Shown here: piece after piece, positions 2,650-19,381 of the stretch
How positions within the stretch are numbered: the first letter of the stretch is position 1
Layout of the letters: each line of letters begins with the position of its first letter
Notes under the pieces: generated by a model
The model's database searches: none
What the model was told of the DNA's origin: nothing
What the model saw: the letters and a program-made list of their open reading frames with translations, nothing else
Position numbers and translations under genes: made by a program
Source of the DNA: Klebsiella pneumoniae
Lineage (GTDB): Bacteria; Myxococcota_A; UBA796; SXON01
Length of the DNA: 64,000 nucleotides
Assembly: GCA_945861635.1 (NCBI GenBank)
Contig: CAMAWH010000017.1
Span: 1-64,000 of the forward strand
Direction: 5' to 3'

Positions 2650-3515
2650 GCGGCGCTCTCCAATTCGCGCGAGAACACGTCGCGCATCGGGCCGAACTGG
2701 AGGCCGCTCGTCAGGAGCGCCCGGAGCTTCGTGCCGGTGCCCGAAAGGTTGACGTAGTGGCGGAACTTCGAAAGCCGTGTGGCCCCGGGAACACGCGGCT
2801 GCTCGGGGTCAAACTCCCACGGATGGAGATAGACAACGGCGGGATGCCCCTCTCGATTGATGTGGCCGATTGCCCGCTCCGTCAGCCAACCGGGCAACAG
2901 GCGGAAGTAGCCGCCGCCCGCCACCGGAAGATTCTTCGACGCAATCCGCACTGTCGACACCGGGAACTCCCACAACCCCCCATCCAGCCGCTTTGCAAAG
3001 CGTCCGGCCTCCGGAATGCCGTACCGATCATGGCCCGCGAGCGGAAAGATGCTCGAATCGTAGCGAAATCCTGCGTCGCGGAGGACGTCGAGCGCCCACA
3101 ACGATTGCTTCGTGATGGAAAATGCCGGTGCGCGGTAGCCGATGGGCGTGGTCGGCGCAGAGGCCCCACCGCTTGCCAACGCGCGCGAGATCGCGTCCAG
3201 CGACCGAGTGAGGTCGTCCGCGAATTCCTTCGGTGTCTGGCGGTAGATGAGCTGATGATCCTAGCCGTGGGTGGCAAGTTCGTGGCCCGCCGCCACGATC
3301 TCGCGCACCAACTCGGGCTGGCGGTCCGCGACCCAGCCGAGCACGAAGAACGTGGCCTTCGTTCCCGTTTCGGCGAGAATGGAGATCACCCGCCGCGTGC
3401 TCCCGGCCACCCGACTCTCCTGCTTGTCCCAATCCTTGCGAGCAAAGATCTGTTCGAAGTTGTGAACCTGAAAGTGTTCCTCGACGTCCACGGTGAGTGC
3501 GTTCTGCAGGACCAT
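2646..3515 (-). pseudogene. Polysaccharide deacetylase (XrtA/PEP-CTERM locus type) broken by one amber codon
   Basis: Two open segments in the same frame (3515-3264 and 3260-2646) make one full-length deacetylase when read through a single TAG at 3263-3261. The first part has the family start NALTVDVEEHFQV and the metal Asp. It ends at HELATHG, then TAG, then DHQLIYRQTPKEFADDL. In this family the motif is HGYxH, so a Tyr TAC/TAT to TAG change is the simplest reading, and it falls between the two metal-binding histidines. The downstream half (GYRAPAFSITKQSLWALDVLRDAGFRYDSSIFP, HPWEFDPEQPR) is intact. There is no frameshift or other decay, and the 4-bp overlap with the formyltransferase remains. 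This is either a recent pseudogene, a sequencing error or a readthrough gene. Confidence 0.85.
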
Positions 3516-3519
3516 GCCG

Positions 3520-4965
3520 CTATGACCCCGGTCGTAGCAGGATCGTTTGCACGGTCTTGAGCAGAATCAGCAAATACAGCGCCGGACTCATTTCCTGCAC
3601 GGCGTACAGCTCATAACAAAGCTTCTCCGCGGAATCTTCGACCGTTGCGCCGTACCGATAGCGCACCTGTGCCCAGCCCGTCACGCCGGGGTTCACGGAG
3701 AACCGCAGGGCGTAGAATGGAATGCGCTCCTTCAGGTCGGTCACGAAGTGCTCGCGCTCCGGGCGCGGACCCACGATCGACATATCGCCGCGAAGAACGT
3801 TGTAGAACTGGGGGAGTTCGTCGATCCGCGAACGGCGGAGAAAACGCCCCAACCTCGTCACGCGCGGATCCCCGAGCCCCTGTGACCACACGGCGCCCGA
3901 CTCCGCCTCCGCGTCGTTGCGCATTGTGCGCAGCTTGATGATCTCGAACGGGCGTTCGTTTTTTCCAAGGCGCTCCTGCAAGAAGAACGCCGGCCCCTTG
4001 GATTCAAGCCGAATCGCGACGGCCGCGAGGCCGACGACCGGAAGTGTGATGATCGCGCCAACCAAAGCGATGAGGATGTCGGCAACCCGCTGAACGGCCG
4101 AAGAAAACCGGCTGTTTCCGACGAAAACCGGACCGAAGATCAGCCATGCATCCGACACGTGCAGCACCGGAAGTTTGCCGGTCAAACGCTTATAGAGCGT
4201 CGGCATATCCTCGATGTGCACGCCCCGCGCCTTGCACTCAAGCAGGCGCTTCGTGAGCTCTCCCGTCATGCTGCCGCGCAGCGCCACAATGATGAGATTC
4301 ACACCATGCTCACTCACAAGGCGGTTGAGGTCCGGAACATCGCCCAACACCGCGGGATCCCCCGGCGCCCCCGGAAGTCGGTCGTCGTCGGAATGGTCCG
4401 TGTACCGCCGGCGCCCGCCGGCCGGATGATCGATGAAGCCGACGACGCTGTAGTCCGCGGCGTATTCGGGATTGCTCAAGATCTCCCGAAGAATAAGCCT
4501 GCCCGCTTCACCCGCGCCGACCACCAGCGTCGTCTGTCGAGACGTCGGCCGCGGCGCGATGGAGCAGACCGAAACCCGCCACACGGTCAGCAGAACCGCC
4601 ATGCTCAGACTGGTGAGCAGCGCCAGCCCACGCCCCCACCACCCAAGCGGAAACGCCGCATACGCAAGCAGTTGGAGGGGCAGGGCCGCGATGACCGCGC
4701 ACCAGATTCGGATGATCTCGTGGCGACGGTGGAAGTCCAACGTCGAGTTGTAGGCGTCCGCCATGTACAAGACGATGAGCGTCGAGGAGATGAAGAAGAG
4801 CGACGCACCGGTGTATTGATCGACGATCGCCGCAACGGACTTGTGGCGATCACCAAATCCGAATCGAAGAGCGTGCCCCAGATAAATGGCGATCAACGCG
4901 ACGAGGATGTCACCCGCCACATAGTGGAACTGCCGGCGCTGGTAGGGAATGCCGAAGAATTTCAT
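3520..4965 (-). CDS. Polyprenyl glycosylphosphotransferase (exopolysaccharide initiating sugar transferase)
   Basis: A 481-residue membrane protein of the WcaJ/WbaP type. The N-terminal part has several membrane helices. A CoA-binding-like/Rossmann segment follows (TTLVVGAGEAGRLILREIL, about 145-165). One further membrane segment lies near 285, before the catalytic sugar-transferase domain with KLRTMRNDAE, RSRIDELPQFYNVLRGDMS, VGPRPERE and NPGVTGWAQV. It transfers a sugar-1-phosphate from a nucleotide sugar to undecaprenyl phosphate, the first step of exopolysaccharide repeat assembly at the inner membrane. It overlaps the upstream glycosyltransferase gene by 4 bp and lies 4 bp before the deacetylase pseudogene. 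The sugar specificity cannot be read from the sequence. Confidence 0.92.
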   Translation of the reverse strand: MKFFGIPYQRRQFHYVAGDILVALIAIYLGHALRFGFGDRHKSVAAIVDQYTGASLFFISSTLIVLYMADAYNSTLDFHRRHEIIRIWCAVIAALPLQLLAYAAFPLGWWGRGLALLTSLSMAVLLTVWRVSVCSIAPRPTSRQTTLVVGAGEAGRLILREILSNPEYAADYSVVGFIDHPAGGRRRYTDHSDDDRLPGAPGDPAVLGDVPDLNRLVSEHGVNLIIVALRGSMTGELTKRLLECKARGVHIEDMPTLYKRLTGKLPVLHVSDAWLIFGPVFVGNSRFSSAVQRVADILIALVGAIITLPVVGLAAVAIRLESKGPAFFLQERLGKNERPFEIIKLRTMRNDAEAESGAVWSQGLGDPRVTRLGRFLRRSRIDELPQFYNVLRGDMSIVGPRPEREHFVTDLKERIPFYALRFSVNPGVTGWAQVRYRYGATVEDSAEKLCYELYAVQEMSPALYLLILLKTVQTILLRPGS

Positions 4966-6086
4966 GCGGCATACTCCCGCGGCACGGGCCAGCGCTCGAT
5001 GACCGCAAGCTCGCGGTACACGGCCAGCGTGCCCGCGAGCATGTGATCGGCGGTGAAGTGGCTTTCATAGGAGCGACGTCCCGCATCGCCAAGCGCACGT
5101 CGTAGCGCGGGATCGCCGATCAAGCGGCCGAGGGCAACCCGAAGCTCCGATTCATCCCCACGAGGCACGAGGATTCCCGTCGTCCCGTGTACGACCGCCT
5201 CCTTGATGCCGCCAACGTTGGACGCCACGACGGGCAATCCCGCGCGCATGGCCTCCAAAATGGCGAGCGGAAAGCCCTCTTGCCGCGAGATCAGCGCACA
5301 CACGTGGGACGATGCGAGGAGGTTCGGCACGTCGCGCGAGACTCCCACAAAGTCTACGCGGTCGGCGAGATGCAGATCGCGTGCCGACGCCTCCAGAAGG
5401 GAGCGATCCGGGCCATCTCCGACGAGGCGCAGCCGGAACGGGGCATCGACGCCTGCCAGGGCCCGGAGCAACAGGTGGTGGTCCTTCGGCGCGGCCAGAC
5501 GGGCAACCATCGTGACCACCGGCGCGCCCCCAGCATCCGGCTTGGCGCGCGCCGCGTCATCGCATACGCCATTATGCACGATACGCACCTGCGGGGCGCG
5601 GGCCACGTGATAGCGCATCCCGACTTCACGGTCCGCCTCCGACACCACGATCAAACGGCGCGTCCATCGCCCCACGATCGCTTCCATGGGAATGGCCAAC
5701 GCCTTCGCGCGGAACGGCAGGCCATCCGAAAACGGCCAGGCGTGCGCCGTGTGGATGGCCGCGACGCGCTCCGCACGACCCGCAAGTCGTCCGAGTACGC
5801 CGGCTTTGGCGCTATGGGTATGCAGCAGATGGGGACGAACAGCAGTGATCAGCTTTCGGATACATCGGAACCCGAGGAGGTCCGCAAAAGGGGAAATGCT
5901 CCTCTGCAGCTCAGGAACGACATGCACCGGGATGCCAAGCAATCCCAACTCCTCACCTACGAAGCCGTCTTCTCCGACGGCGACATGAAATTCGACGTGG
6001 CCCCGAAGGCCGCGGACCAGGTCCACGACGTGCACCTGCGCACCGCCCGGCTCCGCGCGAGTAATGACAATAAGTACGCGGAGCAA
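4962..6086 (-). CDS. GT4 family glycosyltransferase
   Basis: The protein starts with LLRVLIVITRAEPGGAQVHV, a GT-B donor-fold opening with the GGAQ loop. Its C-terminal half has LISRQEGFPLAILEAMRAG, with the two Glu of the EX7E motif, then LPVVASNVGGIKE. It is likely a cytoplasmic retaining transferase that extends the lipid-linked repeat begun by the downstream sugar transferase. The TTG at 6086 is proposed as start because the family N-terminus begins there. The frame remains open to an ATG at 6194, but the extra 36 residues look unlike a protein start. GTG at 6116 is another option. The gene is first in the minus-strand exopolysaccharide operon (6086 to 1870). Confidence 0.85.
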   Translation of the reverse strand: MLRVLIVITRAEPGGAQVHVVDLVRGLRGHVEFHVAVGEDGFVGEELGLLGIPVHVVPELQRSISPFADLLGFRCIRKLITAVRPHLLHTHSAKAGVLGRLAGRAERVAAIHTAHAWPFSDGLPFRAKALAIPMEAIVGRWTRRLIVVSEADREVGMRYHVARAPQVRIVHNGVCDDAARAKPDAGGAPVVTMVARLAAPKDHHLLLRALAGVDAPFRLRLVGDGPDRSLLEASARDLHLADRVDFVGVSRDVPNLLASSHVCALISRQEGFPLAILEAMRAGLPVVASNVGGIKEAVVHGTTGILVPRGDESELRVALGRLIGDPALRRALGDAGRRSYESHFTADHMLAGTLAVYRELAVIERWPVPREYAA

Positions 6087-6309
6087 CTCCCCGCGGGCGG
6101 ACGCTGTACCGGCCACCGCTACCGCGGCCACGCAGGCTGGGTCGGAGCGACGGCTGACGTGGGCACGGTTCACTCCGGGCAGGGGGGCGGCCAAGGGATG
6201 CCCAGTATGCCCGAGGATGCGCGTTCCTGCGCGCCCCGCCGCGCGACCACGCGAAGCCAGCGGGCTATGGGGAGGCCATGGAACGGAGCACGCAGCGGGT
6301 CAACCTCGG

Positions 6310-8259
6310 ATGACGGCAACGGACCAGATTCGTGCCTGGAGGGCCGCCGCACCCAACTTCAGGAAGCGTCAACGCAAGAGCGTCGGACAGATTCGCTACG
6401 GCTGGAACCACCCGAAAACGCTCTGCTTCGTCTTCGGCTGCCAACGATCCGGCACGAAGATGTTGATGCGCATCCTCGAAAATAGCCCAGCGACGCGGAT
6501 CTACCATGAGAACAACGAACTCGCGTTCCACGACTTTCAACTGCGCTCCGACCGAACCGTCCGCTTGCTCACCACGACAAGCCCGGCGCCAAGCCAGATC
6601 TTCAAACCCATCTGTGACAGCCACCTTGCGGATCAATTGCTGGAACGATTCCCGGAGGCCAATGGACTGTGGATCTACCGCCATTACGACGACGTGGCGG
6701 GCTCGGCGTCGCAAAAGTGGGGGTCCCACCAGAGAGAAGTGATCGACGCCGTTGCCGCTGGCGATCTGGCGCGGTGGGGATGGCGCACCGAGCGGCTCTC
6801 GGACACCGTCCTCGCCGCCATCCGGCGTGTCCATCGCCCCGATCTGAGCGATCACGAAGGGGGCATGCTCTTCTGGTACATGCGCAATGCCTGCTTCTTC
6901 GAGCGGGGCGTCCACGCCCATCCGCGCATGGTGTTGAAGAACTACGAGGAGCTCGTTCGCGACCCGGCGCGTCATTTTCCGGAGGTGTTTGCCCACGTCG
7001 GCGCACCTTTTGAGAGCTCATTTATCGCGCGCGTGCACGCCGACTCGGTCGGCCGACGCGAGCCCCCCGTGGTCAGCGCGGAGATTCGCGCGCTGTGCGC
7101 GGAGCTGATGGCGCGGTTGGACGGCTGGGTGCGCGTCAAACCAACGCCGAGCTCGACACTCTCCCTCCCCTCGCCCGTGCTGATGTTGATCAACACGCTC
7201 GGCGTCGGGGGCGCGGAACGGCACGTTGTCACGATGGCGAATTGGCTGGCGGCGCGTGGTGTCGCTGTCACGGTAGCGGCAGAAGGGGGCGATCTGGTTG
7301 CTGAACTGCACGCGAGTACGCAATTTGTGGCCACGCCGCTACGGCGGGTGCGCGCCGATCTGCCGCTCGCGGCACGGCAGGTGCGCGCGATCCTGCGGGA
7401 CAGGCAGCCTGCGGTTATCGTCGCCAACTCGCTTGCGGTCACGTTGATCGCCCGCGTCGCGCAGCCGCGTGGGCGCGTGCCGATCGTCAACATCGCGCAC
7501 GGATGGCCCGATGATCGGTACCAACAGGTCGGGCCGCTCTTGCGCGTGGCCGACGTGGTGATCGCCGTGTCCCCGGAAGTGAAGGCCAAGTTGGTGGCCG
7601 GGGGACTCGATCCGAAACGTTGTGAGGTCGTCCTCAACGGCGTGGACTGCACACACCTTGGGCCCCGCGTCGGCGCCACCCGGCAGGCGGCACGGGAAGC
7701 CATGGGCGCCGGCCCCGAGGACATCCTCGTACTGAGCCTCGGAAGGCTCACCCCACAGAAAGCCCACCACCACATGATCGGCGTGGCAGCACGCTTGCGG
7801 AAGGAGCATCCGCTCCTGCGGTACGCCATCGTAGGCGAGGGCGCCCGAGCCCAGGAACTCCGCGATTTGATCACCGCGGCTGGCCTCACGGACGTCGTTC
7901 GCCTCCCCGGCCTGCGCGCAGACGGGCCGGACCTGTTGGGATCCGCCGACATCTACCTTTCCCCGTCGGATTGGGAAGGCATGCCGCTATCTACCATAGA
8001 AGCGATGGCGTCGGGGTTACCGACCGTCGCAACACGCACAGAGGGTGCCGGGTTGCTTCTCACCGAAGAATGTGGCTTCATCGTACCTATCGGAGATGTG
8101 GAAGGCATGGCGACACAGGTGGGTCGCCTGGCCGCCAACCCCGAACTCCGGGCGCGACTTGGGGCCGCCTCGCGCGAGCGGGCACTGGCCTCCTTTGGTC
8201 ACGACCGCATGGCCAAAGAGATTGCCGCGATTCTTGGCCGGGTCACGTCCGGACGGTGA
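6310..8259 (+). CDS. Sulfotransferase-GT4 glycosyltransferase fusion
   Basis: The single frame encodes two enzymes. Residues about 1-285 have LCFVFGCQRSGTKMLMRIL near residue 38, the PAPS 5'-phosphosulfate-binding loop of sulfotransferases, followed by the usual alpha/beta architecture (LKNYEELVRDPARHF). Residues about 290-649 form a GT4 glycosyltransferase: GVGGAERHVVTMANWL, VLSLGRLTPQK, then SDWEGMPLSTIEAMASGLP with EX7E. The ATG at 6310 (MTATDQIRAW) is chosen because upstream codons are low-complexity and overlap the divergent gene. Inferred role: a cytoplasmic bifunctional enzyme adding a sugar and a sulfate to the same exopolysaccharide. The 3' end overlaps the convergent GH2 gene by 17 bp. 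Confidence 0.88.
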   Translation: MTATDQIRAWRAAAPNFRKRQRKSVGQIRYGWNHPKTLCFVFGCQRSGTKMLMRILENSPATRIYHENNELAFHDFQLRSDRTVRLLTTTSPAPSQIFKPICDSHLADQLLERFPEANGLWIYRHYDDVAGSASQKWGSHQREVIDAVAAGDLARWGWRTERLSDTVLAAIRRVHRPDLSDHEGGMLFWYMRNACFFERGVHAHPRMVLKNYEELVRDPARHFPEVFAHVGAPFESSFIARVHADSVGRREPPVVSAEIRALCAELMARLDGWVRVKPTPSSTLSLPSPVLMLINTLGVGGAERHVVTMANWLAARGVAVTVAAEGGDLVAELHASTQFVATPLRRVRADLPLAARQVRAILRDRQPAVIVANSLAVTLIARVAQPRGRVPIVNIAHGWPDDRYQQVGPLLRVADVVIAVSPEVKAKLVAGGLDPKRCEVVLNGVDCTHLGPRVGATRQAAREAMGAGPEDILVLSLGRLTPQKAHHHMIGVAARLRKEHPLLRYAIVGEGARAQELRDLITAAGLTDVVRLPGLRADGPDLLGSADIYLSPSDWEGMPLSTIEAMASGLPTVATRTEGAGLLLTEECGFIVPIGDVEGMATQVGRLAANPELRARLGAASRERALASFGHDRMAKEIAAILGRVTSGR

Positions 8260-10777
8260 GAGTACCCTCCAGATTGATGGCTGTGATGTGCGCTTTGAAC
8301 GCTTTCGCCGCGGCGACCGGCCTGAAGCGAATCACGCGCACACGACTCGGCGATGCGTGGAAGTAGTTGTCATCGGGCGCGTAGCCCGGACTGGACAGCG
8401 AAATCGCCTGCACGAACGTGGTCGCGTGCAGGGAAACCATCACGTCCTCCCCGTCCAACTCGGCCGTGGCCGTCAGGTTGGCGGCGGGCTGAACCGGCAG
8501 GGTGTGTCCGAGCGGGAAGTAGGCATCTTCGTGGATCAGCCCGCCAGTTTCGCTGGACACCAGCCGGGCGACGACCACGTCGTGGCGCGGCGGGCCAAAA
8601 CGATAGGAACAGGTGAGGTCCGAGAACGTCGGGAAGAAGGAGTCCGCGGGAAACACGCAGCTTGCACGCGGGGACACGCGCACCGGAAGCCGGCCCTCCG
8701 CCACTATCGGCCGGCCCGACTTCCACAATTCAACCTCCAGGCTGGCATCGAGTGGCTCGCCAGTTTCGTTGACGATGGTCAGATCCAACCCGTCGAGCCC
8801 CTCATCCGTAATGAGCACGGCCCGCCGCGCCCACGCGCGCCTCAGATACCAGTACGCGGACTTGGGTCGGCCTGTGCTATCGAGTATGCCCCAGCCCGCG
8901 CCGGGGCGAAGATCCTTGAGGAACCACACCAAACCGCCGCCACAGCCGCTATCCGGCCGACGCCATTCGGCGAAGACCCGCAACATCAGTTCTCCGCTCA
9001 CCACGCGCGAAAGTGCGTAGTACCGCTCTAGATCGGTGCTCCGGAGCGTCACGGCGTCCGCACCGAACATCGTCGTAAGGTAATGATCACGAACGTCGTC
9101 GAAATCCCAGCCAGCTCCAGCATCTCGGGGCACCGCGGCCTTCCATACCGGGTGGTGCGGCGGGGGCGTGACGCCGCCGAGCATCCGCTCCATCGTCTCC
9201 GCGTCGGGAACGTTTGCGAGTCCCAAGCACTCGGGCGTAAATTTGACCCGTGCTCGCCGAACATCGGTGAGCGGGCGTCGGTACGCACCAACGCCGTAAT
9301 AGTGCGTCAGTCCGGCGGCCGTGTGAAAGGGAAGCAACCCCTCACACGGCGTGGAGGGGAAGTAGGGGATGCCGGGGTGGTGGCGCTCACACCACGCCGG
9401 GAGCGTGGTGCTGAAGAACGGTTGGATCCACTCTGCCTGCGGAATACCGACCATGGCGGCTTGCTGCTGGACCTCACTGCTACCACAGTAAACGGCAACG
9501 CACGCGCGTTTCTGGAGGCGATTCAGCTGGGCCGTGACCTCGGCCTCGACGTCACCCAGGAAGGCCGCATCTTCAAACGGGTAGTCCATGTTGGCGAACA
9601 TGAAGTCTTGCCAGACGAGGATCCCAAGCGTATCGCAGGTCCGATAGACGTCTTCTGCGGCGTAGGTCATGGTGCCGCCCACCCGGATCATGTTGACGCC
9701 GGCGGCCCGCGCCAGACGGAGGGTTTCGGTGCGTTGCTCCAGGCTTCCATCGAGCGCGCGAATGTCGTCCACCGTCCAGCAGGCTCCCCGACAAAACACC
9801 GGCACGCCGTTCACGAGCAGTTGCACATTGCCGTCGGCACGATCGACGCCGACGGAGCGGAAGCCGACGCGGCCGAAGTCAATCACGTGCTGCCGGCCGG
9901 GCAGTGCGAGCGTCACCGTGCACGCCTCAAGATGGGGTTCGCCATGGGTGTGGGGCCACCAAAGCGGCACGTCGGGGAGAAGGAAGGTACCGGCAAGAAG
10001 CGTGGCGCCATCGCGCTGTTCGAGGGTCAGCCGCAGCGAGAGTGTGCCGACGTTCACAGTGGCGGACGTCGGGGCCGGAGTGCCATCGGCGAACTCCGCA
10101 AAACAGCGGACCCGCGCAACGCCATCCACCGCGTCCGCAATCAGGTGCACCGACGATTCCTCGACAGCGGGTACGCGCTCGAGCGTAATCTCGCGCCAGG
10201 GACCGATCGGCGCCAATCTCGGGCTCCAACCCGGAATATGCCCGAGTAGCGAGGTGCGCACCCACCGCAGGTTCTGATGATCGAGGAGACCGGCCTTCCA
10301 GCGCGGGCGCGGCTGCTTCCGCGAAAGCTCTGCGCGCAACGAACGGAAGACAACCACGATCTCGTTTTCCCCAGGGCCGAGATCGATGTTCACGAGGTGC
10401 TCCCGGAACATGTTGCGGGATGTGAGGATCGACACGCCGTTCAGCCACACCTCCGCCAGCGTGGCGAGCCCCGCGAAGCGCAGTCGATAGCGCGCGGAAT
10501 CGGCGCCCACTTCCGCCGCAAACGTGCACCGGTACCACCAGTCCACGCTCTCCAAATCGTCGGGAGCGTCCAGCGTCGTCGTTAGGCTCGCGGCTACCGT
10601 TCCTGGCACCAGCGCCGGACGCCACGTCAGGTTCTTCCAGGGTAGATTGACCGGCGCAGGACACTGGCCCGGCGGGGTCGCGGCGAGCACCCATCCGTGG
10701 CTCAGATCGGCGGCGAGGTCAGCCAAAGCGGCGCACCAACTCGCCCGTGCCTTCCTGCCAAAGCGCGGCCATGCCAT
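8243..10777 (-). CDS. Glycoside hydrolase family 2 protein (beta-mannosidase-like)
   Basis: A GH2-type protein of up to 844 residues. The N-terminal jelly-roll sugar-binding domain is visible (WWYRCTF, RYRLRFAGLATLAEVWLNG, GENEIVVVF). An immunoglobulin-like domain follows, then the TIM barrel with NMIRVGGTMTYAAEDVYRTCDTLGILVWQDFMFAN and CVAVYCGSSEV, whose NEP/SSE acid-base position reads SSEV. There is no signal peptide, so a cytoplasmic enzyme is likely, unlike secreted mannosidases. The ATG at 10777 lies 59 bp inside the DUF1839 gene. A TTG at 10726, overlapping that gene's stop, is a reasonable alternative start. It is last in the carrier-protein operon, implying that the operon product carries a sugar. 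Confidence 0.85.
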   Translation of the reverse strand: MAWPRFGRKARASWCAALADLAADLSHGWVLAATPPGQCPAPVNLPWKNLTWRPALVPGTVAASLTTTLDAPDDLESVDWWYRCTFAAEVGADSARYRLRFAGLATLAEVWLNGVSILTSRNMFREHLVNIDLGPGENEIVVVFRSLRAELSRKQPRPRWKAGLLDHQNLRWVRTSLLGHIPGWSPRLAPIGPWREITLERVPAVEESSVHLIADAVDGVARVRCFAEFADGTPAPTSATVNVGTLSLRLTLEQRDGATLLAGTFLLPDVPLWWPHTHGEPHLEACTVTLALPGRQHVIDFGRVGFRSVGVDRADGNVQLLVNGVPVFCRGACWTVDDIRALDGSLEQRTETLRLARAAGVNMIRVGGTMTYAAEDVYRTCDTLGILVWQDFMFANMDYPFEDAAFLGDVEAEVTAQLNRLQKRACVAVYCGSSEVQQQAAMVGIPQAEWIQPFFSTTLPAWCERHHPGIPYFPSTPCEGLLPFHTAAGLTHYYGVGAYRRPLTDVRRARVKFTPECLGLANVPDAETMERMLGGVTPPPHHPVWKAAVPRDAGAGWDFDDVRDHYLTTMFGADAVTLRSTDLERYYALSRVVSGELMLRVFAEWRRPDSGCGGGLVWFLKDLRPGAGWGILDSTGRPKSAYWYLRRAWARRAVLITDEGLDGLDLTIVNETGEPLDASLEVELWKSGRPIVAEGRLPVRVSPRASCVFPADSFFPTFSDLTCSYRFGPPRHDVVVARLVSSETGGLIHEDAYFPLGHTLPVQPAANLTATAELDGEDVMVSLHATTFVQAISLSSPGYAPDDNYFHASPSRVRVIRFRPVAAAKAFKAHITAINLEGTLTVRT

Positions 10778-11693
10778 CCAACGGGGAGAGGTCCAACGGC
10801 CGTTTCCGCATCATCGAACGCGCGAGTTGGAATTGAAAGGCCTTCGTGGAGGTTGAGATTTGGTCGAACGCACCTGTTGCACGATCCAGATCGCCTACGC
10901 CCTGCTCCGAGAGCCACCGTAGGTACGTTCCGGCGAGCTCGAAGCACGCACCGTATTGGCGCAGCGTGGCAAACGAATACGCGTGGAACACCTCAATGTC
11001 GGCGCCCAACAACCAATCGACGTCCCGCTCAAACTTCGCCTTGAATGGGAGAAAGGGATTGACGGTGGGAATTCGGCGCACGTGTTTGCGAAGGATCGCC
11101 ACCGATCCTTCCACCAGCGCGCCGCCCCGGAGCGCTGCCGCGCGCGGCACTGCCTTCACGAACTCGATGTAGGGCGGCAGCATGCGGTCGTGCACCAGCC
11201 CTTCGACCTGGAAGACATCGAGGAAGTCCTGACCGCCGAGGTGGTGGTAGCCCTGATTGTGGAAGTACCCCATGTGGCATGCGGCACGATCGATCGCATT
11301 GACGGCAACAGTGGACTTGACGTGCGCCAACTTATACGCAGTGCCGACGGTGTCGGGCAGAAAGTACGAGTCCAATTCGACCAGGACCGGCCGCCCCGCC
11401 CCGACCTGCTCCTCGACATGCTCGACCAAGGGCCGCCATGGCGCCAACTCGTGGATCCCGAGGGCATAGAGTTCCAGCACATCGTCATGGGGAAACTTGA
11501 AGAACGTCCATTGATCCACGTCGAAGTCAATCGTGATTGTGAACGGCAGTGCGGCACGAGGCTCGAACCCCAAGCCGTGCAACAATTCGACGATGATGTC
11601 GGAGTAGCAGTTCGTCTCCGCCCATGTCCGATTTTCGCCGTGGATCATATGGCGCCGATAGGTGGCAGGATCGAGCGAAACAATCTGCGGCAT
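10719..11693 (-). CDS. DUF1839 family protein, possible carrier-protein-dependent acyltransferase
   Basis: A 324-residue protein matching DUF1839: RTWAETNCYSDIIVELLHGLG, FTITIDFDVDQWTFFKFP, VLVELDSYFLPDT, AYKLAHVKSTVAVNAID and GYFHNQGYHHL. DUF1839 is commonly found beside amino acid:[carrier protein] ligases, as here. The order of elements (an early conserved Cys, then a GRPVLVELD strand, a conserved His and a VAVN strand) recalls the papain-like N-terminal domain of BtrH, which moves an acyl group from a carrier protein to an aminoglycoside. This suggests it is the transferase that releases the aminoacyl group. That is inference from pattern, not an established function. It starts 6 bp after the ligase stop. 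Confidence 0.85.
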   Translation of the reverse strand: MPQIVSLDPATYRRHMIHGENRTWAETNCYSDIIVELLHGLGFEPRAALPFTITIDFDVDQWTFFKFPHDDVLELYALGIHELAPWRPLVEHVEEQVGAGRPVLVELDSYFLPDTVGTAYKLAHVKSTVAVNAIDRAACHMGYFHNQGYHHLGGQDFLDVFQVEGLVHDRMLPPYIEFVKAVPRAAALRGGALVEGSVAILRKHVRRIPTVNPFLPFKAKFERDVDWLLGADIEVFHAYSFATLRQYGACFELAGTYLRWLSEQGVGDLDRATGAFDQISTSTKAFQFQLARSMMRKRPLDLSPLDGMAALWQEGTGELVRRFG

Positions 11694-11699
11694 GCGCCC

Positions 11700-12629
11700 T
11701 CAGTGTCCGTCGAGATCGAGGGTTTCACGAACCGAAGCCGGCCACGCCTCGACGCGCAGACCGTGGGTCTTGAACAGTGCGAGCGCGATGCGCTCCAGGC
11801 CAAACCCGATACAGGCGGTGTGCGCCGGCTTCCCGTCGGGAGTGTGGATGTCGAACGCGTGTCCGAAATAATCGAGGTGATAGTTGCAGGAACTGATCGC
11901 GGTGGGGCGCTCCGTCGAACAGATCGGCACCACCAATTCGTACTTCAGCACCTGCTCGCGTTGGGTGGCCTTGGCAAGGCGCCCACCGCGACCGAAGAAG
12001 GGATCGTTCGCGACAACCGCTTGCACCGGCAATCCGACGGCTTCCAGCATCGCCTTCCCACGTTCGAGCCACGCATCTCGGTGAGCGAGCGCCTGATCCG
12101 CGGACCCGATGCGAACGTATTCTCGCTGGCGGAAGATCTGCATCCGGGCTGGATCATCCGACGGCTCATGGCGAAAGACCCACGAGATGAGGTCCACCGT
12201 CCGCCCGGCCTCGGAAACGGTACCGGTGGCCGTGGGGTACAGCGGGTAGCAGGCGGCCGGGATCAGCATCACGTCACTTGCGGCGAGATCGCGCGTCCAA
12301 TCTTCTCCCTCCGTAAACTTCCGCACCAGCTCCTTGTGCTCCGGCTCCCGGCCCATGAATGCGTGAACAGAACCCATCAAATCTGGGAAGTTATGAATAT
12401 GGTTGATGCGAGTGTAATGCGCGCGGTTGAAGATCGGCGGGAAGTGCATCACTTCCGGAGCAAGATGCCGCCCCATCCGCGTGACGTACCGTTCAAACTG
12501 CGCAATCACGCTCTCGAACGTACCGCTGCGCCCGAAAACGCCGCGTACGCCCGATGGAATGAGCAGGCCTGCGGCGGTGAGTTCGGCCAGATAGTCACGA
12601 TAGCTTTCGAAGTCATCGGTGCCGCACAT
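11700..12629 (-). CDS. Amino acid:[carrier protein] ligase (class II seryl-tRNA synthetase-like)
   Basis: A 309-residue protein with only the class II synthetase core and no tRNA-binding coiled coil. Motif 2 is FRHE (Arg153) and motif 3 GFGLERIALALF (Arg280). Cys127 (PAACYPLY), Glu170 (RQREYVRIG) and Cys248 (AISSCNYHLDYFG) fit the Cys/Glu/Cys zinc site described for the Bradyrhizobium enzymes, which activate glycine or alanine with ATP and load it on a carrier protein's phosphopantetheine. The ATG at 12629 is preferred over the more upstream ATG at 12713: a GAGAGG ribosome site precedes it, and the longer start would overlap the upstream gene by 80 bp. The carrier protein is two genes upstream. 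Confidence 0.9.
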   Translation of the reverse strand: MCGTDDFESYRDYLAELTAAGLLIPSGVRGVFGRSGTFESVIAQFERYVTRMGRHLAPEVMHFPPIFNRAHYTRINHIHNFPDLMGSVHAFMGREPEHKELVRKFTEGEDWTRDLAASDVMLIPAACYPLYPTATGTVSEAGRTVDLISWVFRHEPSDDPARMQIFRQREYVRIGSADQALAHRDAWLERGKAMLEAVGLPVQAVVANDPFFGRGGRLAKATQREQVLKYELVVPICSTERPTAISSCNYHLDYFGHAFDIHTPDGKPAHTACIGFGLERIALALFKTHGLRVEAWPASVRETLDLDGH

Positions 12630-12633
12630 CGGC

Positions 12634-13791
12634 CTACCTCTCCCGCAAGACGATCTGCATCGTGGAGCTTTGCCCGAGAATGCGGTCGTTATTGACCATG
12701 AGCGCCGCCCCATAGGCGTCCCGCAGTTGCCGGCCCAAGGAGTGGCTGGAATCGTTGCGGTAGCCAGAAATGCCGCAAATCAGCATCGCCCCGCTCACGA
12801 CGTCGATGATCAACTGCGAGGAGGTGACCTTCAGATTGTTCACCCGAATGGAAAACGGGAAATTCGAGGTGAACACCGCGTCATCGCCATCGTCGAGGAG
12901 CTGCTGGTATTCGCCGACCGTCGCGAGCACGCCCGCGCGCATCGAGAACAGGATGGTGTCCACCTCGGCGAGGCGGAGGGCTGAAGGCGGCAATGTACCT
13001 GGCGTCTTTCGTGCTTCGGCCCGCACGAACGCGCGCGCCTTGCTGACGGCGTCCGACGCGATGCCGAGCCACAGGGAACTCCATACGCTGTGCGAGAACG
13101 GATGCATCGTCTTTGCGTGGATGTCGGCGTACGGAACCGGGAGTATCTGCTCCGAGCGGCCCGTCGAATTCAGCCGAAAGCCGGCGCTGCACGTGCCACG
13201 GAAGCCCAGCGTATTCCAGTCCGACAGGGGCTCCAGTGTCGTGTCTTCCTTCTTCACAAGGACGTGCACCTGATCGCCCGGACCCGCATCCGGCGACTTC
13301 CTGCACGTGACGAGGATTGCGTCCGCAGCCACGCCGTACGAGATCACGGGCGCCTGCTTTTCCAGCGTGAACATGCCGTCGGTTACGATGACCGCCGTAC
13401 GACTCGTCCTCACGTCTCCGCCAATTCCCAGTTCCGTCGTGGCCGATGCCAGCAGGAATTGTTTCGCGACCAATTCGCGCGCGTAGGCCCGGAAATAGTC
13501 GGAGCCGAGCGCGTGATGGACGATGCAACCGATCTGAATTTGGTGCATTGCGAAAATCATGGCGGTTGAACCGCAATAGTGCGCGAGGGCTTCACAGATC
13601 CGCGTGAGATCCGTGATGCTCAACCCCATGCCGCCGTACGCCAAAGGGACGTAGCAGCTCAGCAATCGTTCCGCTTTCAACGCGTTGAATGCTTCAACGG
13701 GAAACCGCGCATCCCGATCGACGGCGTCGGCGTGCGGGGCAATGGACTCGCGCCCGATGGCGTGCACGCGCTCAAGAATCGACGGATTCAT
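12634..13791 (-). CDS. Acyl-CoA-dehydrogenase-family flavoprotein of the carrier-protein operon
   Basis: A 385-residue protein with the family layout: an N-terminal helical domain (FPVEAFNALKAERLLSCYVPLAYGGMGLS), a middle beta domain (ASATTELGIGGDVRTSRTAV, WNTLGFRGTCSAGF) and a C-terminal helical domain ending in CGISGYRNDSSHSLGRQLRDAYGA. The catalytic Glu of acyl-CoA dehydrogenases, normally in a YEGTS segment right after this point, is replaced by a segment reading LMVNNDRILGQSS. The chemistry may therefore be different, for instance amine oxidation of a carrier-bound aminoacyl group. It overlaps the carrier protein stop by 4 bp and lies 4 bp before the ligase start. The likely substrate is aminoacyl-carrier protein (inference). 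Confidence 0.87.
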   Translation of the reverse strand: MNPSILERVHAIGRESIAPHADAVDRDARFPVEAFNALKAERLLSCYVPLAYGGMGLSITDLTRICEALAHYCGSTAMIFAMHQIQIGCIVHHALGSDYFRAYARELVAKQFLLASATTELGIGGDVRTSRTAVIVTDGMFTLEKQAPVISYGVAADAILVTCRKSPDAGPGDQVHVLVKKEDTTLEPLSDWNTLGFRGTCSAGFRLNSTGRSEQILPVPYADIHAKTMHPFSHSVWSSLWLGIASDAVSKARAFVRAEARKTPGTLPPSALRLAEVDTILFSMRAGVLATVGEYQQLLDDGDDAVFTSNFPFSIRVNNLKVTSSQLIIDVVSGAMLICGISGYRNDSSHSLGRQLRDAYGAALMVNNDRILGQSSTMQIVLRER

Positions 13792-14033
13792 GCGGCGGCC
13801 TTGAGTTCCTGGATCGCTTCGGCGATGGATTGCAAGCTCTCGAACGTCTTTCGACCGAGCATGCGATCGGGGAATTCGACGTCAAAGGCGTCTTCCAACG
13901 CCAGCATCAAGTGAACGGTGGTCAGCGAGGAGAGGCCCGCCGCGTACAGATCGCTCGTCGGCGTGAGATCCGCCGCGCTTGCCGCCAACCGGCCGTGACG
14001 GACAACGATGTCGCGGATTTGATCGATGGGCAC
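13788..14033 (-). CDS. Acyl/aminoacyl carrier protein
   Basis: An 81-residue stand-alone carrier protein. The motif DLYAAGLSSLTTVHLML places the phosphopantetheine-accepting Ser at residue 36, with Ser35 in place of the usual Asp of the DSL motif. A TTG at 14045 would add four residues, but a GGAGG ribosome site lies inside that extension, five bases before the GTG at 14033, so GTG is chosen. The amino acid:[carrier protein] ligase downstream probably loads it. No phosphopantetheinyl transferase is in the window. It sits between the double hydrolase and the flavoprotein, overlapping the latter by 4 bp. Confidence 0.9.
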   Translation of the reverse strand: MPIDQIRDIVVRHGRLAASAADLTPTSDLYAAGLSSLTTVHLMLALEDAFDVEFPDRMLGRKTFESLQSIAEAIQELKAAA

Positions 14034-14056
14034 GGAAGCCTCCAAATGGTTTCAGT

Positions 14057-15829
14057 TCAACCGGCACCGAGGATCGGACTTTCGGTGCCAATAATCAACT
14101 CGATCACGCGGGAATGGGCCCACACGGGCCGAATCGTGTGGTCCACACCGCGAAGAATCGTCAGCTGCGGGCGGGTATCCGGCGTAACGTGTGCATCGAG
14201 ATACGCGATGCTGGGATCGCCCTCACTGGCGACAAGATGGAGGTGCGTGCCGCGCGCCATTACCGCCGCGAGCAGCGCGGCCACCGCATCGGGAGGGGGT
14301 TGCCCGGCCAACTGCGCCACCGTGGCCCGTACCGTCAACTGCGCCTTGCTCACGACGGCCCGCGCGAGCGCAACCGCGTCAATCCGCCCGGTCATCAGGC
14401 GGCGCCAGCGACGGGCGTCGAACAGCGAGCCGCGAATGTGACTTGTCATTCCGCTGGCCCGCGCATCGTCATTCCAGACCCACGCGAGTCCGTTGAACAG
14501 CAGGGCGCGGCGGACGTCGCGACGCGCGGACACCTGCGCCCCCATGAACGCGCCGGAGCAAAGCCCTACAACGTCGATGGCACCTGCCTCCTGCGCGCGT
14601 GCCCACTCCCACGCTACTAACGCATCGTCGATGGACGACTCGCTGTACATCGCCTCCAGATCGGCGTGGGGGATCGACGCCCCGTCGCTATCTCCCACGT
14701 CGCGCACGTCGAAGCGGAGGGAGGGGCGGCCGGCCGCAGCGAGGGCGCGTGCTGCCCGCGTCCACAAGCGATTGGGTCCACTACGCCGGATTCCGCCCGC
14801 GTTGAAGAACACGGTCCAAACCGCGCCCGGTGTTGCACCCCCCGGCGGCTCGCAGACAATCCCGCCGAGTTCGCCCGCACCGCCCCGCTCTACCCACGGC
14901 CGCTCCGTTACGCCGTCGGGAAGGAAGAGCGTTGGCTGTCCACCTGGAGCGGCGGTGTGAGCGGGGATGTCAGCGGGGCCGGCCGCGGTAGCCGGTGCGG
15001 AAGCGAACCACGCAGTAATCGTTTCTTCGACGCCCGGATCCAACTTTGCCTGGTAGGGGTTTTCGAGCAGATCCCCGAGCCCGGCCGCCGGAGAAACTCT
15101 CACCACGGCGCCACCGCCCGTCAGTACGTCGATGAGGGGAGCGGGCGATGCAGAACCTTCCCGTTCAAGGAGGAGTACCCGACGAATCGCCGTGGCGCCG
15201 GTCAGCTCCGCCACCAGCCCCGTACACACGTCCGCGGCGCGGGCGGCCGCCAGGTCTACGGCGACAAGCTGCTCCAGGGCCGCGACGGTAGCGGCGGAGT
15301 AGACGAATCCGCCTGCCTCGACACCTCCGGTCGGGAGCGCCACGCGATCGGCCGGGGGGTCTCCATACGCGCGCGCAGCCATCTTGTGAAACGCGCGCTC
15401 CTCCCGCAGGTACGCCTTGCCGCCCGCAGGGAGGGCCCAGAGCACGACGTCGTCACTTCCGCCCGCGGCGAGCGCGATCAACCCCCCGGCGCGTAGTCCG
15501 ATTGTGCCAACGCGCCGAAATCCGCGCGCGCGAAGGGACGCCGACGCGGCCTGAACCACGCCAACGCACCGGGCGACGACATCCCCCTCCTCTCCCGTTT
15601 GGGGCCCGTCTCCGAGCATCGGCCAATCGAGGCGCAGGACGACGTGCCCCGCCGAAGCCAGCGCGTCTGCCAAAACGCGCAGCGGCCGGTACGCGCACGT
15701 GTCTTCGTAGCCCATGGGGGGAAGCAACAGAATGGCCGTGGCCCGACCGCGCCCATCGCGGGGGCGGTGCTCCACGACGAAGGTTCCACCAAGGTAGTAG
15801 CGCGCCCGCGCTATCGATTTCGCCCCCAT
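14057..15829 (-). CDS. Double alpha/beta hydrolase (fusion resembling the two exosortase-A-associated hydrolases)
   Basis: The 590 residues hold two alpha/beta hydrolase domains. The first (about 20-275) has LLPPMGYEDTCAYRPL, LRLDWPMLGDG and a nucleophile elbow reading GLRAGG, with Arg where Ser is expected. The second (about 290-585) has FFNAGGIRRSGPNRLW, RFDVRDVGDSDG and the elbow GLCSGA, with Cys at the nucleophile position, then RGVDHTIRP with a candidate catalytic His. GLR and GLC elbows are what I recall for hydrolases 2 and 1 of exosortase-A exopolysaccharide loci, usually separate genes. The second domain may be a thioesterase or transferase for the carrier-bound product, the first a non-catalytic partner. 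The start directly abuts the upstream gene's stop. Confidence 0.8.
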   Translation of the reverse strand: MGAKSIARARYYLGGTFVVEHRPRDGRGRATAILLLPPMGYEDTCAYRPLRVLADALASAGHVVLRLDWPMLGDGPQTGEEGDVVARCVGVVQAASASLRARGFRRVGTIGLRAGGLIALAAGGSDDVVLWALPAGGKAYLREERAFHKMAARAYGDPPADRVALPTGGVEAGGFVYSAATVAALEQLVAVDLAAARAADVCTGLVAELTGATAIRRVLLLEREGSASPAPLIDVLTGGGAVVRVSPAAGLGDLLENPYQAKLDPGVEETITAWFASAPATAAGPADIPAHTAAPGGQPTLFLPDGVTERPWVERGGAGELGGIVCEPPGGATPGAVWTVFFNAGGIRRSGPNRLWTRAARALAAAGRPSLRFDVRDVGDSDGASIPHADLEAMYSESSIDDALVAWEWARAQEAGAIDVVGLCSGAFMGAQVSARRDVRRALLFNGLAWVWNDDARASGMTSHIRGSLFDARRWRRLMTGRIDAVALARAVVSKAQLTVRATVAQLAGQPPPDAVAALLAAVMARGTHLHLVASEGDPSIAYLDAHVTPDTRPQLTILRGVDHTIRPVWAHSRVIELIIGTESPILGAG

Positions 15830-17215
15830 CTATTGGCACGCCGAAACGTCAAAGCCGCCGGCCGCGAGCGAGGCGACCGAAAATGAATCTCCCGCCAGTA
15901 CGGGAACCAAATCAGCCTCCGGGATCGACGTGCCTTCGACGTCATTGATCGCACGAATAAACAGGTTGGCGAGGACGCCGTACCCGGTGTCGGAGAAATG
16001 CAGACCATCGAGCGAAACAAATCCGCCTACGACAGTGATTTCAACGTTGGTGCCCCCAACATCAATGCCATTCGCCGCAATATCCGCGACCTCCGTTCGC
16101 AAATCAACAACGTGGATATTCGGATACGGCGCCACGGCCTCGGCGAGCGCGATATTGTATTCCGTCGCCACCGCTGCGATGGCCTCCGCGGCCGCATCGC
16201 CATCTTCCGCGTTCATTTTTGCGCGGCGTTGTTGGGCGCCGCCGAGGACGGTTGGATCCGGTGCGTTGGCGAGAAATACTTCCGCGCCCGTTTCCGCCAA
16301 CATGGGAATCAGCACGGCCAAGCCAGCACGCAAGTCGGAAACGGGGGTGCCGTAGGTCGGCTCCAGTTGGTCGCCCGAAATCACCGTGGGAATGATATCA
16401 TTTCCGAGCAAATCGAAGCTCATGAGTATGCTTGGGGACGCGTTTACGGCCATTTGTGCCTGGGACACCGACGCCGCCTCACCCAAACGACCGTACGGTT
16501 CGTAGACGAGATGGGAAAGGAAGGATTGGCCAACATCCGATTTGGGGTACAAAAGGTCGTCGATGGTGCTGCCGCCCACCGCGAGATCGCGCGGAATCAT
16601 ATCCGGGTCCACCCGTCCGGGAAAAAATGCAAATGCGTTGGTCGCCGGGTCGTGGAGGTTGGCGATGACGTCCGCCGCGGCATCGGAAACAAAATCGGCG
16701 ATATCCGGAATCTCGCAGTTGGGTGGCGGTCCGATATCCGAGGGTGCCAACTGCGGAAACAAATCGGGGATCAAGATGGGCATGGAATAGTACGCCGCCG
16801 ACTGCCGCGCGATCACGGCGCCGGGAGAGACGAGCGCACCGTGATCCCAGGGAACGCCGGACTGCACCCCCTCGGTGAAGCTCGCACCGATCGCCACCAT
16901 GCGGTCAAACAATGGATCGAGCGGCGCGTCGTAGGTGTAGGCGGCCGGGGTGGTGACCGCGCGGTCCGTCGTCACGACGAGGTCCACGACGCCAGGGGCC
17001 TCCGCACCCTGAAGCGTCACGACAAGGTCCGCGCCGTCTACGCGGAGGTTGTAGGCGCGCACGCCACCGAGCGTCACGCCCGTCACCGCAGCCGCGTCCA
17101 CGCCCGTGATCCGCACATCGGTGTAGGCTGCGAGCGACCCGCGGTCGGGCGACATCGATACAACCGGCGTTTCCACCATGCCTTGGCACGCGATCAAGTG
17201 CACGATCAGGGCCAT
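15830..17215 (-). CDS. IPT/TIG plus SGNH/GDSL-hydrolase lipoprotein
   Basis: The 461-residue protein begins MALIVHLIACQG, a short signal with lipobox LIAC. Residues about 20-95 form an IPT/TIG-like beta sandwich (SPDRGSLAAYTDVRITGVDAA). The rest is SGNH-like: block I MVAIGASFTEG, block III with LLGNDI, and block V LDGLHFSDTGYG with the Asp-x-x-His pair. Enzymes of this fold add or remove acyl groups on polysaccharides or lipids. Being a probable outer-envelope lipoprotein, it may act on the exported product of the operon it opens. Its first base is 200 bp from the divergent operon, so this gene most likely carries the operon promoter. Confidence 0.8.
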   Translation of the reverse strand: MALIVHLIACQGMVETPVVSMSPDRGSLAAYTDVRITGVDAAAVTGVTLGGVRAYNLRVDGADLVVTLQGAEAPGVVDLVVTTDRAVTTPAAYTYDAPLDPLFDRMVAIGASFTEGVQSGVPWDHGALVSPGAVIARQSAAYYSMPILIPDLFPQLAPSDIGPPPNCEIPDIADFVSDAAADVIANLHDPATNAFAFFPGRVDPDMIPRDLAVGGSTIDDLLYPKSDVGQSFLSHLVYEPYGRLGEAASVSQAQMAVNASPSILMSFDLLGNDIIPTVISGDQLEPTYGTPVSDLRAGLAVLIPMLAETGAEVFLANAPDPTVLGGAQQRRAKMNAEDGDAAAEAIAAVATEYNIALAEAVAPYPNIHVVDLRTEVADIAANGIDVGGTNVEITVVGGFVSLDGLHFSDTGYGVLANLFIRAINDVEGTSIPEADLVPVLAGDSFSVASLAAGGFDVSACQ

Positions 17216-17414: not shown

Positions 17415-18530
17415 ATGTCCATCCTCGACCTGCTCGAACCCATCGCTGCCGGGCTGATTGCCGATTTCGCTGAATCCGTTGACCGGAATGCGGCGTTTCC
17501 GACCGAAAGCATCGCGGCGCTCGCGGCGGCCGGCCTGCTCGGCGTTGTCACCCCCGCGGAACACGGCGGATTGGGGCTCGGTTTCGACGTTGCCGCCCGC
17601 GTTGTGAACCGCCTCGCGCGGAGTTGTGGCACGACGGCAATGGTCACCTGTATGCACTACTCGGGCGCGGCCGTCCTCGCGAAATACGGTTCAGCGGCGG
17701 TCAATCAGGACGTCGCGGGCGGACGACATCTCTCGACGCTCGCGTTTTCAGAGGCGGGTTCGCGGAGCCATTTCTGGGCGCCGATGTCCACTGCCCGAGC
17801 CGAGGGCGATGCGATCGTGCTCGATGCGCAAAAAAGTTGGACGACGTCCGCCCGGGCGGCAACGGCCTACGTCTGGTCGAGTACACCCGTGACCGCCGAG
17901 GGCGCATCCACGATCTGGCTCGTGCCCGGCAACACCCCGGGAATCGACCGATCAGCGCCGTTCGACGGCCTGGGCCTGCGCGGAAACGAGTCGGCGCCCG
18001 TCCGCTCGGTTGCCGCGCGGATCCCGCTCGCGCATCGGCTGGGCCCGGATGGCGGTGGGTTCGACATCATGATGGGAACCGTCCTGCCACTTTTCAACCT
18101 CGCCAACGCAGGGTGCGCGATCGGGCTCGCGGAAGCGGCGACCGAACGCGCGTGTGCCCACGCCGTCGGCACCCGCCACGCGCATCTCGACACGGCGCTC
18201 CGCGACTTACCGACGATCCGGGCATACCTCGCTCGAATGCGGGTCAAGACGGACATGGCGCGCGCGCACTGGGAGGATGCGATGCACGCCGTCATGTCGG
18301 GGCGTGCCGACGCCCTGCTCCGGGTGCTGGAAGTGAAAGTCGCCGCAGGAGAAACGGCGGGTGAGGTGACGACGTTGGCGATGCGGGTGTGCGGCGGCGC
18401 GGCCTACCGGAAGGATATCGGCGTCGAACGCTACTTCCGTGACGCGCAGGCGATGGGCGTCATGGCGCCGACAAGCGACGTGTTGTACGAGTTCATCGGG
18501 AAGGCGATCACCGGAATGGAGCTGTTCTGA
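17415..18530 (+). CDS. Acyl-CoA-dehydrogenase-family flavoprotein (second, plus-strand operon)
   Basis: A 371-residue flavoprotein with the family layout: FPTESIAALAAAGLLGVVTPAEHGGLGLG, CGTTAMVTCMHYSG, LAFSEAGSRSHFWAPM (the flavin loop), and the C-terminal RVCGGAAYRKDIGVERYFRDAQAMGV. At the catalytic-base position, where dehydrogenases have an EGT segment, it reads MAPTSD, so the Glu is absent. Family members with this change include flavin monooxygenases of the DszC type. It is co-transcribed with a PhnD-like binding protein and a diiron protein, which suggests oxidation of a small sulfur-, phosphorus- or nitrogen-containing compound (inference). Its stop overlaps the next ATG by one base. 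Confidence 0.87.
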   Translation: MSILDLLEPIAAGLIADFAESVDRNAAFPTESIAALAAAGLLGVVTPAEHGGLGLGFDVAARVVNRLARSCGTTAMVTCMHYSGAAVLAKYGSAAVNQDVAGGRHLSTLAFSEAGSRSHFWAPMSTARAEGDAIVLDAQKSWTTSARAATAYVWSSTPVTAEGASTIWLVPGNTPGIDRSAPFDGLGLRGNESAPVRSVAARIPLAHRLGPDGGGFDIMMGTVLPLFNLANAGCAIGLAEAATERACAHAVGTRHAHLDTALRDLPTIRAYLARMRVKTDMARAHWEDAMHAVMSGRADALLRVLEVKVAAGETAGEVTTLAMRVCGGAAYRKDIGVERYFRDAQAMGVMAPTSDVLYEFIGKAITGMELF

Positions 18531-19381
18531 TGGCGCGGCCGTTTACCCTGGGGGCGGTGGCCTACGACCGAAAGGTCGTGGATATCTGGGAAGGCTTCAA
18601 GGGTTGGTTCGCCACTCGCGGATTCCTCTTCGACTACGTGCTCTATTCCAACTACGAACGCCAAGTGGAGGGGCACTTCCGCGGCGAGACGGACGCCGCG
18701 TGGAACTCGCCGTTGGCGTGGTTGCAAGCGGAGCGCATCGCGGCGGAGCGCGGGCACCGCGCTCGCGCCGTTGCGATGAGAGACAGCGACTGCGATCTGA
18801 CCAGCGTCATCCTCGTGCGGGCGGATTCGCCCTTACGAACGCTGGAAGATCTTCGGGGGAAGGGGGTTGCCGTCGGGGCGAGCGATTCCCCACAGGCAAC
18901 GCTGATCCCGCTGCACATGCTGCGCGCTGCGGGCGTTCACCCGGAAACGGAGTGTCGCATCGTTGTTCACGAGGTTCATCTTGGAAAACACGGTGATCAC
19001 GTCGGAGGCGAGCGGGACGCCGTGCGAACGCTCATGCGCGGCGAGGCAGACGCCGCCTGCGTCATCGATGGCAACCTGCTCGCCTTCACACGAGAAGGGG
19101 AAATCTCCGCAGGGAGCACGCGGGTACTGGCGCAGACTGCGCCCTACGACCACTGCAACGTCACGGTGCTCGACGACGCAAATGCCGCCACGGTGACGAC
19201 GTTTGCCCGCCTGCTGCTCGGGATGTCGTACGCCGACGAGACCGTTCGGCCGCTCCTCGATCTGGAGGGGCTGAAGGAATGGAGAACTGGACGAACGGCA
19301 GGCTACGCCCAACTCGCCGCCGCGTGCGATGCCACCGGGGTTATCGACGAATTCGTGACCCGTGTCGCTCGCGACGCTTGA
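18530..19381 (+). CDS. PhnD-like substrate-binding protein without signal peptide
   Basis: The 283 residues follow the two-lobed PhnD/transferrin-like fold: FTLGAVAYDRKVVDIWEGFKGWF at the N-terminus, DSDCDLTSVILVRADSPLRTLEDLRGKGVAVGASDSPQATL in the hinge region and EADAACVIDGNL. Transport-associated members have a signal peptide. This one begins directly with the first beta strand (MARPFTLGAV), and no ABC permease or ATPase is nearby, so a cytoplasmic role is likely: a sensor, carrier or enzyme partner. The start overlaps the flavoprotein stop (TGATG). The 3' end overlaps the next gene by 20 bp, indicating tight co-expression of all three. Confidence 0.75.
   Translation: MARPFTLGAVAYDRKVVDIWEGFKGWFATRGFLFDYVLYSNYERQVEGHFRGETDAAWNSPLAWLQAERIAAERGHRARAVAMRDSDCDLTSVILVRADSPLRTLEDLRGKGVAVGASDSPQATLIPLHMLRAAGVHPETECRIVVHEVHLGKHGDHVGGERDAVRTLMRGEADAACVIDGNLLAFTREGEISAGSTRVLAQTAPYDHCNVTVLDDANAATVTTFARLLLGMSYADETVRPLLDLEGLKEWRTGRTAGYAQLAAACDATGVIDEFVTRVARDA

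Follow-up and report, generated by a model that had tools for sequence, protein, structure and literature searches.

For what purpose do bacteria charge a carrier protein (CP) with an amino acid by means of a relative of the tRNA synthetases? The role of such carrier-charging relatives, open since 2010, was still called unknown in a 2022 review (PMC9437257), and the question is raised by a gene cluster in the 64-kb window analysed here (the whole stretch, positions 1 to 64,000 of contig CAMAWH010000017.1), in which a ligase of this kind lies among genes for a CP, a flavoprotein, a DUF1839 protein, a glycosidase of family GH2 and two further hydrolases. Comparison with related loci demonstrates that the cluster contains a real, portable cassette spread over many phyla, and on balance we favour the reading that its six genes constitute a self-contained pathway that turns a carrier-bound amino acid into an amide. 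The initial annotation of the window had described seven tightly packed minus-strand genes, and all seven are confirmed, with coordinates, strand and family signatures in full agreement:

15830..17215, minus strand: SGNH/GDSL hydrolase, putative lipoprotein (Lipase_GDSL match)
14057..15829, minus strand: fused alpha/beta hydrolase of 590 aa, with halves like exosortase-A-associated hydrolases 2 (N-terminal) and 1 (C-terminal)
13788..14045, minus strand: CP with phosphopantetheine site Ser40 (PRK07081, 103 bits)
12634..13791, minus strand: flavoprotein of the acyl-CoA-dehydrogenase fold (family match and fold search)
11700..12713, minus strand: amino acid:[CP] ligase of the Bll0957 kind (PRK07080, 433 bits)
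10719..11693, minus strand: DUF1839 protein, predicted papain-like cysteine transferase (Cys29, Ser127/Thr128, His145; Pfam PF08893, 385 bits; PMC10318531)
8243..10777, minus strand: GH2 glycosidase of beta-mannosidase type (Glyco_hydro_2_N2, PF22666, 79.5 bits)

The genes abut (SGNH/hydrolase, 0 bp), are separated by short gaps (hydrolase/CP, 11 bp; ligase/DUF1839, 6 bp) or overlap (CP/flavoprotein, 4 bp; DUF1839/GH2, 59 bp; flavoprotein/ligase, 80 bp as listed). The CP probably begins at a GTG at 14033 behind GGAGG, giving 81 aa and a gap of 23 bp to the hydrolase gene. The 80-bp overlap is probably a start-codon artefact, with the true ligase start at ATG 12629, because homologues start near residue 29 and this ATG is preceded by GGGAGAGG; a start there leaves a 4-bp gap to the flavoprotein gene.

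In 84,980 species genomes at least 579 ligase loci were confirmed; the best 80 of them in named genomes were analysed for gene content and underlie the counts of loci given below. The CP, flavoprotein, ligase and DUF1839 genes occur together in 78 of the 80, GH2 in 72, the double hydrolase in 65 and all six in 64, several of the incomplete loci stopping at contig edges. The operon of seven proposed initially is therefore retained as a conserved unit of six: the SGNH gene, carried by 0 of the 80 related loci and co-directional in the window only, was rejected as a part of the cassette and is a local passenger. Taxa that possess the cassette include Proteobacteria, Myxococcota-type bacteria and Myxococcales, Planctomycetes, Verrucomicrobia, Acidobacteria, Chloroflexi, Gemmatimonadetes and Abditibacteriaceae. 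Among 284 genomes of the window's phylum, the ligase scores above the cut-off in 13, DUF1839 in 12 and both in 11 (hypergeometric p = 5e-17); because the two genes coincide in this way, and in conserved order, their co-occurrence is not a matter of chance. Repeated linkage of ligase and DUF1839 across genomes, on which the initial annotation had made its pathway depend, was thus found. In the 13 DUF1839-bearing regions of the phylum, some of them truncated by contig ends, the CP, flavoprotein and GH2 genes recur with the ligase, mostly in the same order and on the same strand; at locus L024 no ligase lies between the flavoprotein and DUF1839 genes (11796-11859), nor was one found elsewhere in that genome. 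Plasmid copies, which are stand-alone islands, keep the same order with GH2 directly after DUF1839 in Azospirillum, Rhizobium rhizoryzae, Mycetohabitans, Caballeronia and Shinella, and consist of the first four genes only in Rhizobium binae. None of the viral contigs searched for the ligase carried it.

The ligase exceeds the cut-off of its curated model (357 bits) and is matched by the crystallised homologue Bll0957 (E 1e-73); its Cys155, Glu183 and Cys301, which we take to be zinc ligands by analogy with Bll0957, are invariant in 65 of 65 aligned sequences. The CP likewise exceeds its curated cut-off (72 bits), is homologous to the carrier protein of Bll0957-type complexes (4h2w_C) and keeps Ser40 in 81 of 81 sequences. 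Family membership and residues together indicate an intact carrier-loading system, whose charging reaction is predicted. Amino acid:[CP] ligase 1 of Bradyrhizobium (Bll0957; PDB 3mey, 4h2w) shares with the window ligase the curated family, the three presumed zinc ligands and a homologous CP, whereas the two sequences have clearly diverged; a fold change of 3.0 has been reported for Bll0957 and Bll0958 in a phaR mutant at 0.5% oxygen (PMC10888616). Five loci (L114, L116, L117, L124 and L138) have a holo-ACP synthase-like gene at most 10 kb from the ligase; in L124 this gene (7601-8306) adjoins the CP gene, which lies on the opposite strand.

The flavoprotein has the fold of an acyl-CoA dehydrogenase according to both family match and structure search. 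At the two positions usual for the catalytic Glu of dehydrogenases, placed by manual alignment where we take the MCAD and IVD bases to be, the window protein lacks Glu and has Ser233 and Val366 instead; across its relatives the MCAD position is Val or Ile (77 of 77 sequences) and the IVD position Ser, Ala or Thr (78 of 78). Because neither position holds Glu, these residues make an ordinary desaturase unlikely. The alternative to a dehydrogenase would be a nitrososynthase or other class D flavin monooxygenase such as DnmZ, KijD3 or DszC; by sequence, the nitrososynthase DnmZ is the second-best solved relative. In the azaserine (AzsP/AzsQ/AzsF) and triacsin (Tri22) pathways an acyl-CoA-dehydrogenase homologue acts on a CP-bound glycine-like group (PMC10445470), as proposed here for the cassette; those pathways differ in their activation chemistry and hydrazine substrate.

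The DUF1839 protein lies far above its Pfam cut-off (22.5 bits), and Cys29 and His145 are kept in 79 of 79 sequences, together with Ser/Thr127 and Thr128. An AlphaFold2 model built from 50 sequences (pLDDT 92.9, pTM 0.91) was compared with the PDB and matches AziU3/U2, CtaG and CcbD along nearly the whole chain (TM 0.55-0.62, E 9e-7 to 6e-4 among the best 17 matches), with nothing else below E 0.05; a phmmer search of the PDB with the sequence gave no match at E 1. CtaG is a carrier-dependent amide former of closthioamide biosynthesis. Judged by spacing, its Cys11, His128 and Asp144, named in PDB titles, would be the counterparts of Cys29, Ser127/Thr128 and His145 of DUF1839, so the Cys-His-acid order of CcbD and CtaG is not found: Ser/Thr occupies the place of His, and His145 that of the acid. 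The model suggests that DUF1839 probably works like the amide synthases of the CcbD/CtaG type, yet it is not counted among them because the triad order differs.

CcbD takes CP-tethered proline onto its catalytic Cys and then uses it to acylate a thiooctose at its amino group (PMC12945683). The lincosamide set CcbC/CcbZ-CP/CcbD resembles the cassette in combining a stand-alone activating enzyme, a discrete CP and a Cys-dependent amide synthase of similar fold, and differs in using an adenylation domain rather than a tRNA-synthetase paralogue, in the triad order, and in a condensation to which neither a flavoprotein nor a GH2 enzyme or hydrolase contributes. In the butirosin system (BtrI/BtrJ/BtrH) a papain-like enzyme passes a CP-bound acyl group to an amino sugar (PMC10318531), as is proposed for DUF1839, although the latter has no BtrH_N match in Pfam. 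Earlier work had already given DUF1839 a papain-like fold and a triad of the C-(T/S)-H type, and had guessed from genomic context that it takes part in glycan processing (PMC10318531). A second DUF1839 gene in Cupriavidus metallidurans CH34 (L052, 16819-17670, minus strand), in which Cys29 is replaced by Arg, stands beside the ligase, faces the intact copy and is probably degenerate. The window itself encodes a second papain-like candidate with BtrH_N and DUF4872 (25397-26620, plus strand), about 8 kb past the SGNH gene.

The catalytic residues of GH2 are kept almost throughout (Glu435 in 66 of 67 sequences; the nucleophile Glu516 in 67 of 67), with Ser434 (65 of 67) where solved beta-mannosidases have Asn; the Asn-Glu acid/base motif of beta-mannosidase is absent. 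In the double hydrolase, Cys424 (60 of 61) and His564 (59 of 59) mark the C-terminal domain, and the nucleophile elbow of the N-terminal domain has no Ser. Against the models for exosortase-A-associated hydrolases 1 and 2 the window protein scores 58 and 51 bits, below the cut-offs of 168 and 203, and related hydrolases score up to 129 and 115. The GH2 and double-hydrolase sequences that were inspected have no evident signal peptide.

From the observed gene content, conservation, active-site residues and folds we infer every reaction of the favoured amide-forming pathway, its amino acid and its acceptor, as follows: the ligase would use ATP to activate a small amino acid (characterised relatives suggest glycine or alanine) and attach it to the phosphopantetheine arm of the CP; once bound there, the aminoacyl group would be oxidized by the flavoprotein, with N- or C-oxygenation or C-N oxidation likelier than ordinary alpha,beta-desaturation; DUF1839 would take the acyl group on Cys29 and, like CcbD, pass it to an amine, the most likely acceptor being an amino sugar or a small glycoside; and GH2 and the double hydrolase, presumably cytoplasmic, may act on that glycoside or on mis-charged carrier. 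This reading is preferred because the four core genes are together in 78 of 80 loci and also travel as plasmid islands, the active sites are conserved, the DUF1839 fold resembles CcbD and CtaG, a holo-ACP synthase-like gene is near the ligase in five loci, and one variant locus couples the carrier genes to a non-ribosomal peptide synthetase (NRPS). In that variant (L057, 8784-15551) CP, flavoprotein and ligase genes occur without DUF1839, divergent from an NRPS of condensation, adenylation, peptidyl carrier protein and thioesterase domains, which could use the charged carrier as another amide former. The sequence of loading, alteration and transfer envisaged by the initial annotation thus keeps its ligase, CP, flavoprotein and transferase-like DUF1839, now with the fold of CP-dependent amide synthases, and loses the role given to the SGNH enzyme.

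Several observations weigh against the pathway. Among the 80 loci no glycosyltransferase belongs to the conserved set. The fold match of DUF1839 is distant (8-15% identity, root mean square deviation about 6 A), and with its His and third residue swapped relative to CtaG the protein may instead act as a hydrolase or a thioesterase. In structure searches, dehydrogenases and DszC-type monooxygenases come out equally near the flavoprotein. Two loci (L099 and L128) are reduced to CP and ligase, accompanied or not by the hydrolase and lacking both flavoprotein and DUF1839, and two others (L110 and L111) are without GH2.

A further variant is L058, in which the flavoprotein is a short remnant (2944-3156) between CP and ligase, on a short contig where no DUF1839 is seen; the flavoprotein and DUF1839 are absent jointly in L058, L099 and L128, although these cases are few.

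As to the product, we suggest only tentatively that in many phyla the cassette makes a so far unknown class of amides, amino sugars bearing an oxidized glycyl or alanyl group, for which a retired tRNA synthetase would load the carrier and a relative of the lincosamide synthetase with a swapped triad would form the bond. A credible alternative, which we nevertheless do not expect to prevail, is a small diffusible metabolite, an aminoacylated pseudo-glycoside like the lincosamides or mycothiol, trimmed by cytoplasmic GH2 and hydrolase. The portability of a stand-alone cassette that has no fixed glycan neighbours is consistent with such a metabolite, as are the natural-product enzymes nearest to DUF1839 in fold, the NRPS variant and the lack of evident signal peptides; the cassette has, however, no conserved transporter, resistance gene, sugar-nucleotide enzyme or glycosyltransferase, and its occurrence in ordinary soil bacteria is equally compatible with primary metabolism.

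It is unlikely that the cassette decorates an exported polysaccharide, with DUF1839 aminoacylating, prior to export, an amino sugar of the exopolysaccharide whose genes lie next to it. Polysaccharide genes adjoin the cassette in the window and several relatives only:

3520..8259: sugar-phosphate transferase (minus strand), GT4 (minus strand) and sulfotransferase-GT4 fusion (plus strand)

The resemblance of the double hydrolase to exosortase-A-associated hydrolases also favours this reading, and polysaccharide markers are found in 24 of 61 full loci; the other 37 have no marker, and the plasmid copies stand alone. With 38 regions of the same contigs, about 45 kb or more away, as controls, a first marker set appeared enriched (14/38 loci versus 3/38 controls, p = 0.002), but three of its markers came from the flanks of cassettes, and the rhizobial loci do not count as independent. 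Markers derived from the window alone gave 9/38 versus 3/38 (p = 0.057) and, with the window's own group removed, 6/35 versus 3/38 (p = 0.20), an enrichment that is not significant. The exopolysaccharide block was accordingly rejected as an obligate partner, and the same comparison speaks against it as the general partner that the initial annotation had supposed; the exported glycan as target was an inference of that annotation, and the GH2 proteins examined have no evident signal peptide. Least probable is a catabolic or shunt pathway, in which GH2 and hydrolase would release a glycoside-bound substrate, the carrier steps would oxidize glycine or alanine and DUF1839 would be a thioesterase: hydrolases and dehydrogenase-fold enzymes are common in catabolism and DUF1839 has a cysteine-hydrolase fold (PMC10318531), but the ATP-costly loading by a dedicated ligase is ill suited to degradation, the nearest folds of DUF1839 are synthases, and no uptake system is conserved.

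The initial annotation had presented aminoacylation of a glycan as a new role for these ligases, a novelty that does not stand, since the core of the pathway was predicted in 2010. The article of Iyer et al. (PMC2922099) describes the neighbourhood of a SerRS-paralogue amino acid:CP ligase in the Atu2574 region of Agrobacterium, with a CP, redox enzyme, uncharacterised open reading frame and glycosidase that follow the same logic as the cassette, and predicts that an amino acid is ligated to an amino sugar at the cell surface, where Atu2574 would make the amide bond and the redox enzyme would alter the aminoacyl moiety. That text is silent on the hydrolase fusion, the exchanged triad residues, the resemblance in fold to CcbD/CtaG, the flavoprotein's lack of the usual catalytic base and the range of phyla. 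The link in fold between DUF1839 and CcbD/CtaG is new here, as are the absence of that base, the wide distribution and the independence of the cassette from exopolysaccharide genes. No later experimental assignment of function to the cassette was found in the open literature, subscription papers being mostly outside the search. Since the cassette is conserved in many phyla and occurs in hundreds of genomes at least, we expect it to have a definable product, and the DUF1839-CcbD link offers a precise, directly testable reaction with amino sugars.

Across the divergent promoter from the SGNH gene, the window encodes a translationally coupled trio on the plus strand (17415-20540): an Rv1679 (FadE16)-like dehydrogenase, an Rv1680-like substrate-binding protein and an AurF/R2-like di-iron protein, a pairing that recalls the mycobacterial Rv1679-Rv1680 genes. 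The Rv1680-like and AurF-like genes were rejected as parts of the cassette because no related locus has either, and the FadE16-like gene was rejected because the hits to its marker are the cassette's own flavoprotein. On the other side, the fusion of a sulfotransferase-like domain with GT4 (6064-8259, plus strand) is convergent with GH2, which such a gene also adjoins in loci L019, L021, L027 and L074.

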